DNA of 64,000 nt from a virus. The stretch spans positions 1 to 64,000 of the IMG/VR virus record IMGVR_UViG_3300027747_002377. The stretch is one strand, 5' to 3'. Shown in pieces: positions 11,656 through 57,845 of this stretch (positions within the stretch are counted from its first letter, which is position 1; the number at the start of each line of letters is the position of its first letter). A program made the position numbers and the translations under genes. Below the pieces are notes generated by a model that did not search any database, had not been told where the DNA came from, and saw nothing but the letters and a program-made list of their open reading frames with translations.

Positions 11656-14118
11656 TCAATACTCTAACTCTAGTTTTCCTCTGGTCATTAAACCATTACA
11701 AAGCCAAACGAGAGCGTCGACACAATCGTCGTGGGAGCTGACACCAAAATTTACAATCTCATCAGTTAGAGCCATAAATTTGCGGTACCTGTTAAAGACT
11801 AGCTTACGTTGCTCAAATAAACCCATAATCCCCCTGAAACGTGCTACTTTGTCCCCGCGAAATCCTTTGACCGCATGCCAGTTAATGTTGTAAAGACCGT
11901 GGTCACCTTGGCATATCCTCCTGAAGTCTGCCTCCAGGGATGCCTGATATGCAACTGCTTCCGACCAAACATCAATGCTGCTTCCGGTTGGGTGGTAATC
12001 ATTACCGTCTTTATGCACTACTCCCCATTCATACAGCATTTCCATTAAAGCTTCGAGTTTTTCTAGGTTTCCCATGATGCGAATTCGCTTGCAATCAATA
12101 ATGTGAATTTTGTCCCCTACTCTTCCGCCCATAACAAACACGGTGTAGTCATTACGTTCTCTTACTCCAGCAGATAAATCAACGCCAATACCAAGTGAAT
12201 CAAAGTGCGTAGAAATTTGACCCTTAACAATTAAGTCAGGTGAGATAGATAGTTCACTGGTCTGTACGATTTGATTTTGATACTGAAAACTAAAACTGAT
12301 TGGAGCTTGACGGCGGCGATCTTGAAGGTATTCAAGTGACCACATTTCAGGCCAATAAGAAACTTCGTCGCCTTGTTCGTCTACAGTAATGGCAGATTGG
12401 ACAATCTGTACCCAATCGTTGCCAGGGGTGAAGGTACTGGCATGAACATCATCATGACGGAACCTAGTACCTAGACAGACTGCACGTCCACCTTCAAACA
12501 TTGTTGGTGTGATAACTGAGTTCCAGTTATCCTCCATTGCCACTCGGATATCCCTGTTCTTAATGTCGTCAGAGCTCTTAATCGGGTCATCTATTATACA
12601 ATTTGCTACACAGAACTTACCTTTACCCGCAAAGAAGTTATGGTTTGTGGATCTTGTTTCAAGGTCATAGACATACTCCTCTCCGCTGCTAATTTCTGAA
12701 ACGGCGGAAATGGTAGCTCCACTATCTTTGCTTTTTCTGCTAATTGATGATAGCTTGTATGGCAGGGCCTGCAGACAGTAATTAAATTCTGTAATACGTT
12801 GTTCTTCGGATTTGCATCGATATGGTGCACAACTAAGTTGGTTCTTACGTGTTGATTTTTTGCAGTCAACATTTGTTCCTTGATATTGCATAGAGAACAG
12901 GTCATATTGTCCCTTTTTAAAATTAATTCTCGCAGCTCCGGTAGTTTTGGCCTGCTCATGCCGTGCCGCCAATTTGAGTTCCACTTCCCCTTCATCATTC
13001 TGGAATGAACTTTGGAGGAACAAATTTTTGTACAGTAGACGCTTTCCGAGTTTCTTGGTTGGAAACTCTGATTGCATTCTGGGCAAATCTTTGGAAACAA
13101 AATTTGTTTGTATTTTCCTGCACACTTCTTTGAACAGAAAAACATTTTTATTTTGCTGTTTCGAGATAGCTGTCTCCAGTTTGTATTTACCTGAAAGCTT
13201 GTTTGACAGGTTGGACAACTTGTTTTTATTTTTATCTTGAAGGCAATCGGAATAACTAAGCAGCCGATCCCCAGCTTTGAGATCTTTGGCGCACACAATT
13301 CCCCGCCCTGGGATATAAAAAGGGTGTTCTGGGGTTGCCCGTATGAGATCTCCAGTGCTTGTTTCCACGTGGATAAACCGGTCGGCAAGGCGTCTAGACA
13401 CTGCGTGTATTCCTGACCACTCAACGGCACTTGTTTCTGGGTTGTATGTGCTGACTCTATAATCTTTTGGTTGTTGATACAGGTCATGGATTGGAATGGA
13501 GCCGTGTTGCGTATTGACAAGTGTATCACCTGTCAGGCATAAATGGCTACGCTTTGAGGTCACAGCACCTTTTAGTCCAGCGCAACAAAGAGTAAATTCT
13601 TCTTCACCAGTAGATTTAATGCCAGCAAACTTCCAATCAATACTCCAGTATTCGTTACTATTAATTCCTTTGGCAATCTTCACCATTGGAAATACTTCTT
13701 TGTATGTTTTACTTTCTTCTAAAATTCTTTTGATGGCTGCACTTTTAGGGCGAGCAACATCAACGGTATAAGAAATGTAAAGAATCTTTAGTGGTTTTTT
13801 ATTTAATGCGTGTACACCGATTGTCCATGCTGTGAACAAACCTAAAATGGTCGACTTGGCTGAACCCCGTGGTCCTAATATGTCTACGTTTGGTCCTGCA
13901 ATACCAATCAAGCACTCAGAATCATTTCCTGTGCATAGGTGCTGATGCCAGAGAAGGTGGTGAGCTGCTGGCGGTTTGTCGCCAACTACAGTACAGAAGT
14001 AAGCAAAGTCTACCCGTGCCCGTTCAATATCAATGTCGGAACTTTTTTTTACTACTTGTTGCTTTGCTGCAGCACGTGCAGTCCTCCGGTAAACGGAGTA
14101 TAGGGAAGTACCAGCCAT
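11656..14118 (-). CDS. terL: Terminase large subunit interrupted by intein
   Basis: 820 codons, of which 507 remain after intein removal, a normal TerL size. ATPase Walker A GPRGSAKST is at residues 82-90. Walker B (hydrophobics then IIDDP) is split by the intein: Leu193 precedes it and Cys-Ile-Ile-Asp-Asp-Pro follows. The C-terminal nuclease domain has the first acidic strand (GIGVDLSAGVRERNDYTVFV) and a terminal acidic strand (SSHDDCVDALVW). It pumps DNA into the prohead through the portal. Start follows the possible small-terminase gene by 24 nt. Without splicing the Walker B strand would be disrupted, so packaging probably depends on splicing. Confidence 0.9.
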   Translation of the reverse strand: MAGTSLYSVYRRTARAAAKQQVVKKSSDIDIERARVDFAYFCTVVGDKPPAAHHLLWHQHLCTGNDSECLIGIAGPNVDILGPRGSAKSTILGLFTAWTIGVHALNKKPLKILYISYTVDVARPKSAAIKRILEESKTYKEVFPMVKIAKGINSNEYWSIDWKFAGIKSTGEEEFTLCCAGLKGAVTSKRSHLCLTGDTLVNTQHGSIPIHDLYQQPKDYRVSTYNPETSAVEWSGIHAVSRRLADRFIHVETSTGDLIRATPEHPFYIPGRGIVCAKDLKAGDRLLSYSDCLQDKNKNKLSNLSNKLSGKYKLETAISKQQNKNVFLFKEVCRKIQTNFVSKDLPRMQSEFPTKKLGKRLLYKNLFLQSSFQNDEGEVELKLAARHEQAKTTGAARINFKKGQYDLFSMQYQGTNVDCKKSTRKNQLSCAPYRCKSEEQRITEFNYCLQALPYKLSSISRKSKDSGATISAVSEISSGEEYVYDLETRSTNHNFFAGKGKFCVANCIIDDPIKSSDDIKNRDIRVAMEDNWNSVITPTMFEGGRAVCLGTRFRHDDVHASTFTPGNDWVQIVQSAITVDEQGDEVSYWPEMWSLEYLQDRRRQAPISFSFQYQNQIVQTSELSISPDLIVKGQISTHFDSLGIGVDLSAGVRERNDYTVFVMGGRVGDKIHIIDCKRIRIMGNLEKLEALMEMLYEWGVVHKDGNDYHPTGSSIDVWSEAVAYQASLEADFRRICQGDHGLYNINWHAVKGFRGDKVARFRGIMGLFEQRKLVFNRYRKFMALTDEIVNFGVSSHDDCVDALVWLCNGLMTRGKLELEY
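12601..13539 (-). other. Terminase intein, 313 codons
   Basis: Residues 194-506 of the terminase reading frame. N-terminus: Cys in a block A (CLTGDTLVNTQHGSIPIHDL). Block B is RATPEHPFYIPGRG with Thr and His. C-terminus: EEYVYDLETRSTNHNFFAGK (block F), ending CVAN before extein Cys. The final Asn is preceded by Ala rather than the usual His, as in a minority of active inteins. N- and C-terminal splicing parts total about 146 residues, the size of a mini-intein. The roughly 166 codons between them look like no domain in this frame but encode an HNH endonuclease in the +1 frame. Confidence 0.88.
12606..13529 (-). CDS. HNH homing endonuclease nested in intein, +1 frame
   Basis: 307 codons open, lying wholly inside the intein but shifted +1 from the terminase frame. 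The recognisable protein is residues about 100-265 (DNA about 12735-13232). It has a zinc finger C105-x2-C108...C132-x3-C136, a second C149-x2-C152...C166-x3-C170, and an HNH domain with C211-x2-C214, LVVHHIDANPKNN (235-236 HH), QNL, and C253-x2-C256-H. Residues 1-99 are only the shadow of the intein N-domain, so the true start is unknown. No ATG precedes the first finger; a TTG in this frame after GGCGGGGAA, or a +1 ribosomal frameshift from the terminase frame, are possibilities. Zinc-finger plus HNH architecture is typical of phage homing endonucleases. Confidence 0.8.
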   Translation of the reverse strand: MIHLSIRNTAPFQSMTCINNQKIIESAHTTQKQVPLSGQEYTQCLDALPTGLSTWKQALEISYGQPQNTLFISQGGELCAPKISKLGIGCLVIPIAFKIKIKTSCPTCQTSFQVNTNWRQLSRNSKIKMFFCSKKCAGKYKQILFPKICPECNQSFQPRNSESVYCTKICSSKVHSRMMKGKWNSNWRHGMSRPKLPELRELILKRDNMTCSLCNIKEQMLTAKNQHVRTNLVVHHIDANPKNNVLQNLITVCRPCHTSYHQLAEKAKIVELPFPPFQKLAAERSMSMTLKQDPQTITSLRVKVSSV

Positions 14119-38774: not shown

Positions 38775-39008
38775 ATGCAAAGAGGTTTTGTTTTCTGTAA
38801 TAAAGACTTCACTAAAGTTCTTTGCATTGACTCCAAGGTTCATGGTTTTGTAATGATTTCTGTTGACGATACGAAAGCTTTGAATAAAGCTATGTGCCTT
38901 CATGATTTGACAGAAGCTAAGAACATTCAAAGCCGCCTTGATGTCAATGGAATGAATAATGATCTAGAAATTACTAACATTGCCCGCTTGTACAAAAAGT
39001 TCTACTAA
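38775..39008 (+). CDS. Small protein before DNA polymerase, 77 aa
   Basis: ATG at 38775, 5 nt after the upstream stop; overlaps the polymerase start by one base (TAATG). Alpha/beta (GFVFCNKDFTKVLCIDSKVH). Unknown, but coupled to the polymerase. Confidence 0.55.
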   Translation: MQRGFVFCNKDFTKVLCIDSKVHGFVMISVDDTKALNKAMCLHDLTEAKNIQSRLDVNGMNNDLEITNIARLYKKFY

Positions 39009-41650
39009 TGACAAGATTTGTACTTGACCTTGAGTCCAACGGTCTGCTGCCGACCATGGACAAAATTCATTGTATTGTCCTTTATGATCTAGACAAACAA
39101 GAGTATATTAGCTGCGCTGATCAACCTGGATATAAACCATTAAGTTATGCTATTGAGTGTATCCAACAGGCTACACTCTTGGTGGGTCATAACGTAATTA
39201 AGTTTGATATTCCTGCTCTCAAAAAGATTTACCCTGATCTCATACTGAGTCCGGATTGCACTTATTTTGATACGCTTATCACCAGTAGGTTGTTCTGGCC
39301 GGAGCTTGAGCCAGTTGATCACGCTAAGTACAGTCACATAGAACGTAAGTACTTTGGTAGGCATTCATTGGCTGCCTGGGGTGAACGTCTTGGCGTAAGT
39401 AAAATTGACTTTAAGGCTGAGTTAAAAGAACAAGAGGAAGAAGTTAAGAACGTATGGGAATCTTGGTCCGCCACCATGCAAACTTACTGCATGGCAGGCC
39501 ACCACAAGTTTTTGCGTGACGATTTAAGTTGGGTCCCGTGCAAAGATATACACGAAGGTGACACAATTTTAGGGTTTGACGAGTTTCCAGAAAAACAAAC
39601 TGGTCGGTGTTTTAAGCCTACAAAAATATTAAAAAAAACAACAGATCAAGCTGAACTGTTTCGCGTTACTTTGAAATCAGGAAAAACTTTTGATGTCACA
39701 GCTGAACATAAGTGGTTGGTAAGAAACTACAAATCACGTTCATCTTTGCAAAACCCTTTTGAAACCAGAACTCAACTAGTTTGGGCGGAAACTAAAGATT
39801 TAATGGCATCAAAATGTTTTGCAATTAAATATATGAATACTTGGGAAGATGTAAAAACATGGGAGGCAGGTTATCTTGCAGGAATTTTTGACGGCGAAGG
39901 CAATGTTAGAAGGCATCAGAAGTGGGACCGCCTTGATTATTCTTTTGCGCAAAAACCTGGTGTGGTGCACGATTTAGCGTGCAAAATTATTAATAATTTG
40001 GGTTTCAGATATACTACAAGAAAAGTAATGAATACTGGTGATTGCGATTGTATTAGAGTTGTAGGCACTTGTTATGAAAAGCTTAGATTGTTGGGCATGA
40101 TTAAGCCTGTTCGATTAATTAAAAATGCGCAACCTTTTGAGCGCCTTGGAAGGTGTGAAGTCAAGGGTGAAGGGGATTTTGATGAAATTGTTTCGGTTAT
40201 TTCTATCGGAATGGACGTAATTTATAAGATAAGTACTGATACTAAAACATTTGTTTTAGATGGCTATGCTCACCACAACTGTGAAGGTGACATTAAAGTT
40301 TCTATACGTCTGTATGACTACATGCTCAGCCAACAAGCTGACCCACGATCAGTAGAGCTAGAGCATCAATTTGCTTTAGTAATGGCAAAACAAGAACAAT
40401 TTGGATTTCCTTTTAATGAGAAAGCGGCCTTCGCATTGGTTAACACACTCAAAGCCAAGAGGACTGAGATCAACGACCGCCTCCAGGAAGTGTTCCCATC
40501 TATCGTCGAGGAACGGTGGTCAACTAAGACGGGTAAACGGCTTAAGAACAAGGTGCAGATCTTTAATCCAGGTTCTAGGCAGCAAACTTCTGAGCGGCTT
40601 AAGGCGCTTTACCCAGAAATTACTTTCGACACCACGGAGAAAGGGAATCCTCAGGTAGATGATGATGTGCTGGAAAAGCTTGGCACAAAGTATCCTGAAG
40701 CTAAACTACTAGCTGAGTACCAAACGCTAAACAAACGACTTGGACAAATCGCAGAAGGAAAAGAAGCCTGGCTTAAGCACGTTCAGGTTTATGGCGATGG
40801 TCGAATTCATGGTGAAGTCATCACCAATGCTTGCATCAGTGGTAGGTGCAGCCACAAGCGTCCAAACATGGCGCAGGTACCCAGTGTTGGCCACGCTTAT
40901 GGTTCTGAATGTCGGGCTCTTTTTTATGCTCCTGATGGGTGGAAATTAGTTGGCGCCGACGCATCAGGACTTGAGTTACGTGCACTCGGAGCATGGCTTG
41001 CCTACTTCGACGAAGGAGATTATGCAAGGCTTGTTAGTGACCCTGCTGTCGATATTCATAGTTACAACGCTCGTATGTTCGGTATTTATAGTGGTGATAA
41101 CCCTATAACAAAAGCCGAAAGGGACCTATCAAAGAAGCTAATCTTTGCTCTTGCTTATGGTGCTGGCGCAAAAAAAGTTGGTAGTATCGTACTGCCTTTT
41201 GGAAGTGAAGATGAACAATATAAACAAGGTAAAAAAACAATGGAAACGTTCTACGATAACCTTCCTGCTATTAAGCAACTAAAAGATCTCATTGAGAAGC
41301 GCGTTAATGAGAAAGGATACTTAACTGGGATCGACGGCAGAAGGCTACAGATCAGATCAAAGCATGCTGCCCTGAACCAATTGCTCCAGAGTACCGGGGC
41401 AATAGCAGTTAAGAAAGCTACATGTATTTTGTATGAGGACTTAAAAACTATTGGATTAGAGTTCGGCAAACACTGGGGTTATGTTGCACACGTCCATGAT
41501 GAATTTCAAGCACTCGTTCTCCCAGCTTATGTAGAAACTTATATGAAGGTGGCAATTGATTCCTTTAAGAAAGCTGGTGAGTACTTTAACCTAAAGTGTC
41601 CACTGACAGGTGAGGCCAGGGTAGGACAGAACTGGATGGAAAGCCACTAA
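39008..41650 (+). CDS. T7-like family A DNA polymerase with intein
   Basis: 880 codons; 616 residues after removing the intein. N-terminal 3'-5' exonuclease: Exo I FVLDLESNG (residues 4-12), Exo II HNVIKFDIP (61-69), Exo III Y160-C-E-G-D, split by the intein. Polymerase motif A is GADASGLELRALG, motif B is RDLSKKLIFALAYGAG and motif C is HVHDEFQ. The residue equivalent to E. coli Pol I Phe762 is Phe. No 5'-3' exonuclease domain. Replicative polymerase; works with primase-helicase 51821 and SSB 43108. Tail-to-tail 4-nt overlap with the minus-strand gene at 41647. Confidence 0.93.
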   Translation: MTRFVLDLESNGLLPTMDKIHCIVLYDLDKQEYISCADQPGYKPLSYAIECIQQATLLVGHNVIKFDIPALKKIYPDLILSPDCTYFDTLITSRLFWPELEPVDHAKYSHIERKYFGRHSLAAWGERLGVSKIDFKAELKEQEEEVKNVWESWSATMQTYCMAGHHKFLRDDLSWVPCKDIHEGDTILGFDEFPEKQTGRCFKPTKILKKTTDQAELFRVTLKSGKTFDVTAEHKWLVRNYKSRSSLQNPFETRTQLVWAETKDLMASKCFAIKYMNTWEDVKTWEAGYLAGIFDGEGNVRRHQKWDRLDYSFAQKPGVVHDLACKIINNLGFRYTTRKVMNTGDCDCIRVVGTCYEKLRLLGMIKPVRLIKNAQPFERLGRCEVKGEGDFDEIVSVISIGMDVIYKISTDTKTFVLDGYAHHNCEGDIKVSIRLYDYMLSQQADPRSVELEHQFALVMAKQEQFGFPFNEKAAFALVNTLKAKRTEINDRLQEVFPSIVEERWSTKTGKRLKNKVQIFNPGSRQQTSERLKALYPEITFDTTEKGNPQVDDDVLEKLGTKYPEAKLLAEYQTLNKRLGQIAEGKEAWLKHVQVYGDGRIHGEVITNACISGRCSHKRPNMAQVPSVGHAYGSECRALFYAPDGWKLVGADASGLELRALGAWLAYFDEGDYARLVSDPAVDIHSYNARMFGIYSGDNPITKAERDLSKKLIFALAYGAGAKKVGSIVLPFGSEDEQYKQGKKTMETFYDNLPAIKQLKDLIEKRVNEKGYLTGIDGRRLQIRSKHAALNQLLQSTGAIAVKKATCILYEDLKTIGLEFGKHWGYVAHVHDEFQALVLPAYVETYMKVAIDSFKKAGEYFNLKCPLTGEARVGQNWMESH
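39488..40279 (+). other. DNA polymerase intein with LAGLIDADG endonuclease
   Basis: 264 codons in frame (residues 161-424). Starts at Cys (CMAGHHKFLRDDLSWVPCKD), block B GKTFDVTAEHKWLV, a single dodecapeptide motif YLAGIFDGEGNV, and ends DTKTFVLDGYAHHN before extein Cys. Penultimate His and terminal Asn are canonical. Inserted between the Tyr and catalytic Asp of Exo III. Complete, so probably active in splicing; endonuclease activity is uncertain with one motif. Confidence 0.92.
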
Positions 41651-56687: not shown

Positions 56688-57845
56688 TTGTCCCCTATCA
56701 ACTTGCTCAACGCCAAAAAAACGGGTCAGTTCTTCGCTGACAGGGGTCTTGGTACCGAAGATTTGATCTGGCTACTGAAATGCACGAAACTCCTACGTGA
56801 TCGCCTCCCTGGTGACCGTTGCTGGTGCCTGGACAAGATCAACCATCCGTTCTTCCATGGGTTTACACTCCAGGGGAGAGGGGCGCTCAAGGGGGCTCAG
56901 GGGGACGCTGATAAAGCCTCAGGCAAAAGACCCATGTATAGAGGCAGGGACGCCCGCTCCTTGATCCTGGCGATCACAGGACGTTATGGAGAGCCTGGGA
57001 AGGTGGTTGTGCGTACCGCTGCCTGCGAATCTTTTTATTGCATCAATCCCACCCACTATTACTGGGGCACCAAGGGGGACGTTCAGTTGGAACGCCTAAG
57101 GCGCGGAGGAACTGACCTACCTAACGAGACGATCAAGCAGATCAGGGAAGCAAGGCAATCAAATGCTCAGATCTATACCTACCAAAAACTGGCGGAAGAA
57201 TTTGACCTTTCTTATAGCGTTATACGTGGGGTATGTACCAAGGGTAATTACCAGACGACAGAGGCGGCTGCACAGGAAACTGTTATAGTGCCAGAGAAAC
57301 TAGGTTTAAATATGGAAACCCTTGCAATTACTGAAGACGACACCATGGATTACTCAAGTATTGAGTGTATCTGGGGGCACAAGGGACGGTTTGGAATGAT
57401 GGGTGAGTGCCTTGATTGCATGGATGAGATAGCCAAGGGGAAATGTGAAATAAATCTTAAATCTTTTGCCTTTGATAAGTACTGGACCGTACGCAGCTTC
57501 TGGGACAAAGTCAACATTCCTAAAGATCAGGACACAAAACAGTGTTGGTCATGGGGTGGGGGCAGGAAACCCAGCAATGAAACGGTTGCTTATATGCCAA
57601 GTCCATTCCACTCAGCCAAAGCTCAGACTGCTCCACGGGTGGCGTTCTGGGTAGCCCGAGGTTACACTGGCAAATACCGGATTCAACACGCCAACAAAGA
57701 CTGTGAATCTGGTTGCTGCAATCCGACTCATCTAACCATTAAAGGGTTACAGTTAGTAGAGCAACCAGATAAATTAACTGTCTACGATCTGTCCTATGGA
57801 AACATCTTTGAGCAAGTCAGGAAAGCCAGCGCAGAAACGAAGTGA
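56688..57845 (+). CDS. Double HNH-like DNA-binding protein, 385 aa
   Basis: Two degenerate HNH-type zinc modules: ACESFYCINPTHYYWGTKGD at about 110-130 and RIQHANKDCESGCCNPTHLT at about 335-355 (Cys-x-Asn-Pro-x-His as in HNH_3-type endonucleases). A helix-turn-helix lies between (YTYQKLAEEFDLSYSVIRGV, about 160-180). The first module lacks the leading His, so nuclease activity is doubtful and a DNA-binding regulator is plausible. TTG start at 56688; TTG 56703 is an alternative. Its promoter carries a palindromic operator, hinting at autoregulation. Confidence 0.6.
   Translation: MSPINLLNAKKTGQFFADRGLGTEDLIWLLKCTKLLRDRLPGDRCWCLDKINHPFFHGFTLQGRGALKGAQGDADKASGKRPMYRGRDARSLILAITGRYGEPGKVVVRTAACESFYCINPTHYYWGTKGDVQLERLRRGGTDLPNETIKQIREARQSNAQIYTYQKLAEEFDLSYSVIRGVCTKGNYQTTEAAAQETVIVPEKLGLNMETLAITEDDTMDYSSIECIWGHKGRFGMMGECLDCMDEIAKGKCEINLKSFAFDKYWTVRSFWDKVNIPKDQDTKQCWSWGGGRKPSNETVAYMPSPFHSAKAQTAPRVAFWVARGYTGKYRIQHANKDCESGCCNPTHLTIKGLQLVEQPDKLTVYDLSYGNIFEQVRKASAETK

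Follow-up and report, generated by a model that had tools for sequence, protein, structure and literature searches.

The terminase gene and its intein

The DNA that we analyzed (a stretch of 64,000 nucleotides, hereafter the window) comes from a viral contig of 82,372 bp, and the virus is cyanophage-like. On the minus strand of the window, the gene for the terminase large subunit (TerL) forms a single ORF without interruption, from 14118 to 11656, into which an intein is inserted. The ORF and the parts of the intein, in window coordinates, are as follows.

11656..14118, minus strand: TerL ORF including the intein, 820 aa, with Terminase_6C and Intein_splicing matches
12601..13539, minus strand: Walker-B intein of TerL, 313 residues from C1 to N313, followed by extein Cys+1
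13219..13539, minus strand: N-terminal Hint half, intein residues 1-107, with block B TPEH (AlphaFold2 and Foldseek)
12724..13218, minus strand: host-frame linker, which is the other-frame reading of an HNH gene, intein residues 108-272 (165 residues)
12601..12723, minus strand: C-terminal Hint half, intein residues 273-313, with blocks F and G (AlphaFold2)

The product of the ORF was 49% identical to the TerL of phage S-EIV1, with 99% of the length covered, and its Pfam matches were to Terminase_6C, the terminase nuclease domain (E=6e-9), and to Intein_splicing (E=1e-11, residues 202-500). The intein occupies TerL residues 194-506 (Cys194 to Asn506) between the junctions SHL/C and VAN/CIIDDP and is thus inserted directly before the Walker-B segment CIIDDP. 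In sequence, it fulfills what is expected of a class-1 intein, namely, a Cys nucleophile at position 1, a TxxH motif, a terminal Asn followed by Cys, and an empty site. In our alignment of inteins (A6), C1, G13, H72 and N313 were invariant columns; the block B motif was present as T69-P-E-H72, with T69 conserved in at least 90% of the sequences, and the C-terminal Hint motif VYDLE..HNF..N was conserved as well. Moreover, N506 and Cys+1 (C507) were invariant across 31 host ORFs. The penultimate residue of the intein is Ala in the window, not the usual His; other close relatives have Ser, Leu or Gly there.

The host-frame intein was modeled with AlphaFold2. The N-terminal Hint part (residues 1-100) was modeled with a pLDDT of about 90 to 97 and the C-terminal part (residues 275-313) with a pLDDT mostly above 90, and the Hint part matched solved inteins in Foldseek (best E=7e-7). 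The linker of residues 108-272 stayed below a pLDDT of 50 throughout, as a disordered segment; read in the host frame, it resembled nothing known and was not conserved as a protein. Maturation of the 820-codon product by protein splicing is inferred, without experiment, and belongs to the overall reading that we consider very likely.

A zinc-finger HNH protein in the +1 frame

This DNA has a second open frame, +1 relative to TerL, which encodes the following features.

12606..13529, minus strand: longest form of the +1-frame ORF, from a GTG start, 307 codons, conserved as a protein in relatives
12606..13424, minus strand: candidate HNH endonuclease CDS from a conserved TTG, 272 aa plus stop, start codon inferred
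13122..13217, minus strand: first zinc finger of the HNH protein (CPTC ... CSKKC), cysteines at least 90% invariant in alignment A5
13020..13085, minus strand: second zinc finger (CPEC ... CTKIC), cysteines invariant in A5
12747..12914, minus strand: HNH nuclease domain with a CxxC..CxxC zinc site (HHIDANPKNNVLQNLITVCRPCHTSYH), ligands invariant in A5, supported by PHROG families

Even in its longest form, the ORF lies wholly within the intein limits. Both zinc fingers are of the C-x2-C..C-x3-C type, and the core motif of the nuclease reads HHIDANPKNN..NLITVCRPCH; residues H200, H201, N213, C218, C221 and H222 were invariant among the 40 sequences of alignment A5. The 272-aa form matched 18 PHROG families, 17 of which are HNH or related endonucleases (best E=7.5e-24). 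The AlphaFold2 model of the +1-frame protein had a mean pLDDT of 77; most of the HNH and finger regions reached 80 to 95. When this model was compared with the PDB by Foldseek, we obtained weak matches alone (E>0.05), as expected for a small multi-zinc protein. The protein shows two of the hallmarks of an HNH homing endonuclease, an intact motif with its zinc ligands and genetic mobility (see below). That it cleaves intein-less terL near the insertion site is inferred, since there are no cleavage data.

A first-pass annotation made from the sequence alone had described a TerL frame open across a 313-codon intein, a linker of about 166 codons, and a +1 frame of 307 codons inside the intein limits that carries two zinc fingers and an HNH domain. 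All of these claims held: the first is borne out by the ORF, the Pfam matches and the junctions, and the linker corresponds to the disordered segment of 165 residues.

Relatives sharing the layout

Using tblastn and pattern searches, we found the same layout in about 100 viral contigs, some of them near-duplicates, as well as in the cultured Synechococcus phage S-EIV1 and the cultured Gordonia phage Clown, in both of which the locus is annotated merely as terminase. The first scan returned 63 loci in which a longer ORF encloses the HNH ORF; at all of them, the HNH frame leads the host frame by one base. The second scan added about 34 to 37 contigs that agree in phase and have an intein C-junction; these junctions were assigned by motif, and four contigs were verified with Pfam. 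Representative host ORFs matched Intein_splicing in 31 of 31 cases and Terminase_6C in 29 of 31, and nearly all had the insertion at the same Walker-B site, L160 having it at another TerL position. HNH identity among carriers falls to about 30% with the phase unchanged. The HNH lay in the +1 frame in every carrier examined, and no in-frame HNH was found among TerL relatives; in-frame HNH inteins were present only as distant relatives in other genes (L150). The backbone of the HNH protein tree was unresolved, and the number of origins could not be resolved.

The layout was not confined to terminases. In L261 (1332-4241), a DNA polymerase A ORF with Hint and Intein_splicing matches contains a +1-frame HNH ORF, and the same layout was found in the N6/N4 methylases of L248 and L258, whose Hint-like ends were judged by eye. 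Dual-coded TerL inteins also lie on three contigs with isolate-style IMG/VR numbers (L195, L236 and L192) that resemble prophages of sequenced bacterial isolates, and these isolates are possible experimental hosts.

Several other inteins and HNH genes were seen in the course of this work. The window itself contains a second, canonical intein of 264 aa (39488-40279, plus strand) with an in-frame LAGLIDADG motif, AGYLAGIFDGEGN, in a DNA polymerase A ORF (39008-41650), and an ORF at 56688-57845 (plus strand) whose C-terminal part matches phage endonuclease/HNH families (PHROG 1872, E=2.6e-11). In some relatives, the Walker-A P-loop of TerL holds an additional in-frame intein of the LAGLIDADG type, which was read directly in L007 (1228-4833) and L054 and inferred from ORF length in L100 and L125; L007 has both this intein and the dual-coded Walker-B intein. 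In the HK97-gp10-like tail gene of L149 (2962-4388), an intein N-part, followed by a stop, and an HNH plus C-part lie in two overlapping ORFs, for which a split intein, a frameshift or a sequencing error is possible; L150 shows this layout in one frame. In L039 (4460-5032) and L050 (about 1670-2239), both with intein-free TerL alleles, an HNH ORF of a different family overlaps the end of terL in another frame.

Selection on both frames

We estimated how often an HNH gene would leave the TerL frame open by holding the HNH protein fixed and redrawing synonymous codons according to the codon usage of the contig itself. For the window, 16.8 TerL-frame stops were expected over 189 codons and none was observed (P about 6e-10); the unused third frame of the HNH region contains 16 stops. 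TerL-frame stops were likewise absent from all 34 loci tested, against 3 to 20 expected. GC-rich loci are weak taken alone because just 3 to 5 stops were expected there, and many of the loci in the codon-usage tests lie on short contigs. The P values apply per lineage and should not be multiplied, since the relatives are not independent.

The pattern of substitutions also changed frame inside the intein. In eight pairs of relatives, differences in the exteins fell at host codon positions 1, 2 and 3 in proportions of 20, 8 and 72%, versus 57, 24 and 18% in the HNH core; there, the wobble base of the HNH codons coincides with host position 1. This switch was significant in each of the eight pairs (<1e-13) and in the pooled data (chi-square p about 1e-172). 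Synonymous rates in the host frame, determined for the S-EIV1-like group, defined one further feature.

12679..13437, minus strand: excess synonymous constraint on the host frame, host residues 228-480, mapped from the S-EIV1-like group

The rate was about 0.5 outside this region and mostly 0.00 to 0.2 inside it, and it recovered beyond residue 480. The region takes in about 60 codons of the N-terminal Hint domain, and this part is strictly dual-coded, since the host protein is conserved there too, besides the synonymous constraint. Thus, both frames are under selection, and the dual coding is not accidental, a result shown by sequence comparisons.

These data bear on further claims of the first-pass annotation. 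Its chance estimate for the open frame, 1e-4 to 1e-5, was conservative compared with the synonymous redraw, and its suggestion of selected dual coding is supported by the phase in relatives, the codon-position switch and the conservation in two frames. Two checks that it had named gave clear answers: comparison with related terminases and inteins revealed the same phase and, among TerL relatives, no in-frame HNH, and the per-frame analysis of synonymous constraint revealed a switch of frame within the intein.

The phase itself has consequences for the stops. Because the HNH frame leads by one base, any stop in the TerL frame must include an HNH wobble base, arising from an HNH codon that ends in T before a codon starting with AA, AG or GA, and all such stops are therefore avoidable without altering the HNH protein. 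The opposite phase has unavoidable stops, e.g., Met before a codon starting with A. Since the stops can be avoided in one phase only, it is possible that the constant phase reflects feasibility as well as descent.

Translation of the HNH frame

A TTG codon lies at 13424..13422 of the window and is shared by 25 of 26 members, L104 having TTA; it sits at the onset of constraint, near host residues 228-232 of the S-EIV1-like group. It has no Shine-Dalgarno sequence and no unusual RNA accessibility (mean percentile 0.41). We consider it likely that the HNH protein is translated from its own internal start near 13424; this start is inferred and remains a candidate only. Two other starts were considered. 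The GTG at 13529, which would give the 307-aa form, is not supported as a certain start, because constraint begins about 30 codons downstream in the S-EIV1-like group and the GTG is absent in L007. An ATG about 20 codons into the intein is missing in L104, L109, L115 and L125. The first-pass annotation had left expression between an internal start and a +1 frameshift; neither is settled, and the TTG candidate is favored.

Mobility and decay of the element

Intein-free alleles (L010 to L019) aligned through the junction without an indel, which defines an exact empty site. The closest of these, L010, is 98.1% identical to the exteins of the window, and its differences from the window delimit the following feature.

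13540..13624, minus strand: co-conversion tract in the N-extein adjoining the insertion site, from clustering of differences versus the empty allele L010

Of 29 differences, 13 fall within about 84 to 86 nt just 5' of the site (binomial P=1.7e-9). This cluster is the footprint expected of repair from a donor (co-conversion); the footprint is shown, and the event is inferred from the sequence. The intein of the window is 96.2% identical to that of L003, versus 84 to 85% for the exteins, and it has therefore moved between lineages. L003 matches 8 of the 13 tract sites and is not the tract donor. In a second carrier/empty pair, L004 versus L055 and L057, the differences were not sharply clustered, and no sharp co-conversion tract was found.

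We also observed decay of the HNH frame in carriers whose TerL frame is intact. In L124, the HNH frame is broken by a nonsense codon that TerL reads as a replacement of Thr by Ile, and in L139 and L141, 126 linker codons were lost and the nuclease is broken. The intein can therefore do without the linker, and each reading has a fate of its own.

Proposed mechanism and alternatives

The locus is very likely a mobile class-1 intein at the Walker-B site of TerL with a separate homing endonuclease overprinted in the +1 frame. In this model, the TerL frame would be translated straight through the intein, and the Hint halves would fold around the disordered 165-residue linker and splice the intein out, leaving functional TerL. 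The +1 frame would separately give a zinc-finger/HNH endonuclease of about 270 aa, probably from the internal start near 13424. In terL alleles without the intein, the endonuclease would cleave at the Walker-B codons, a highly conserved target, and repair from the carrier would bring in the complete intein together with a short stretch of flanking DNA. The architecture, its conservation, the selection on two frames and the horizontal transfer are shown; splicing, nuclease activity and the cleavage site are inferred from sequence and models, with no experiment.

A rival already raised in the first-pass annotation holds that two compensating indels, either real or sequencing errors, struck an ancestral in-frame HNH intein, so that the dual coding is accidental. 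In-frame HNH inteins do exist in phages (L150), which makes an ancestral in-frame state plausible in deep time. Against this rival stand the identical phase in about 100 contigs and two cultured phage genomes, at HNH identities down to about 30%, the absence of TerL-frame stops against a strong expectation, and the failure to find an in-frame TerL relative. It is very unlikely in general and is refuted for the window contig, since divergent independent carriers, including the cultured S-EIV1 and Clown, share the phase. A group I intron or another RNA-level element with an HNH ORF, the TerL frame being open by chance, would fit the frequent occurrence of HNH ORFs in group I introns of phages. 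However, there was no Rfam match up to E=1 and no catalytic RNA core was found, the Hint motifs are conserved in the TerL frame, and chance does not explain the open frame; this alternative is all but excluded.

The HNH might also be an unexpressed relic in the window, with the intein alone mattering now, and its frame is indeed broken in some relatives (L124, L139 and L141). In the window, however, the HNH is intact, 16 of 19 core changes versus L003 are at HNH third positions, and the transfer is recent, with a co-conversion tract, so that we regard a relic as very improbable. Finally, +1 ribosomal frameshifting in the intein could produce a TerL-N/HNH fusion without internal initiation. The HNH frame is the +1 frame of TerL, and the S-EIV1-like group shows good conservation of the sequence where constraint sets in (ACAGATCAAATTGATTGG). 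However, neither a prfB-type TerL-frame stop nor a slow codon was present as a trigger, and the group of the window itself lacks the ACAGATCAAATTGATTGG motif; what the members have in common is the TTG (25/26). Frameshifting is therefore unlikely, and an overprinted endonuclease with its own internal start remains the preferred reading.

Relation to known systems

The closest described case is the out-of-frame HNH of the ShiLan insertion. Arsenault et al. (2025; PMC11855218) reported that a nonsplicing insertion in phage methylases conceals an HNH in its third frame; the authors found neither an intein nor an intron, and the insert remains in the methylase. Both cases involve a zinc-finger HNH that lies out of frame in a phage gene with an open frame and is distributed sporadically, with homing inferred. 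The element of the window is not of the ShiLan type: it is a true TerL intein with a splicing domain, its HNH is in the +1 frame and not the third, and selection on both frames has been quantified for it. The class-1 TerL inteins of mycobacteriophages (Kelley et al. 2016; PMC5050341) are likewise mobile, located in the TerL ATPase domain, and provided with an endonuclease in the linker position. In those inteins, however, the endonuclease is a domain of the intein, whereas in the window it is a separate +1-frame protein and the linker is disordered; with the endonuclease outside the frame of the host protein, this is not a canonical in-frame fusion. The HK97-gp10-like phage gene of L150 also combines Hint with an HNH bearing zinc motifs, but its HNH is in the host frame and is only a distant relative. 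Phage group I introns of the I-HmuI type carry free-standing HNH ORFs. As in the window, the endonuclease is there a separate protein from an ORF within a splicing element; the difference is that splicing in the window would take place at the protein level, and the host frame must therefore stay open through the endonuclease gene.

In the literature searched, we found no dual-coded HNH in a true intein, with the possible exception of a 2025 preprint on actinobacteriophage inteins of "non-canonical architecture" (10.1101/2025.01.02.630785), which PMC11855218 cites for overlapping frames. This preprint may cover part of the layout, e.g., the case of Gordonia phage Clown.

Two DNA methylases in our set, L245 (2649-4271) and L247 (255-2111), are ShiLan-like: the HNH occupies another frame, no splicing domain was detected, and both frames are open (P of 2e-6 and 6e-19). 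Their HNHs are about 50% identical to those inside the methylase inteins of L248 and L258, and this kinship ties the splicing and nonsplicing kinds together. The cytosine methylase of Staphylococcus phage CUB-EPI_14 (L084, 575-2380) also has an HNH in another frame, with no splicing domain detected. A bolder reading, toward which we lean by a small margin, is that of a widespread class of mobile inteins, not previously described as such, with an overprinted, separately translated endonuclease; its members occupy two sites in TerL as well as N6/N4 methylases and DNA polymerase A, and would be linked with ShiLan-type insertions in one evolutionary series.

Inteins are taught as a single polypeptide that splices and cuts. 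In the inteins described here, the cutter would be a second protein, encoded in another frame of the same DNA. Standard annotation overlooks such nucleases, as the examples of S-EIV1 and Clown illustrate, and these cultured phages allow tests of splicing, internal initiation and cleavage. The homing cycle becomes readable frame by frame, since the nuclease can die by a nonsense mutation while the intein frame survives, as in L124. Dual-coded inteins thereby provide a large natural comparative system for overlapping genes, in which splicing and mobility would be encoded apart yet remain inseparable by recombination.
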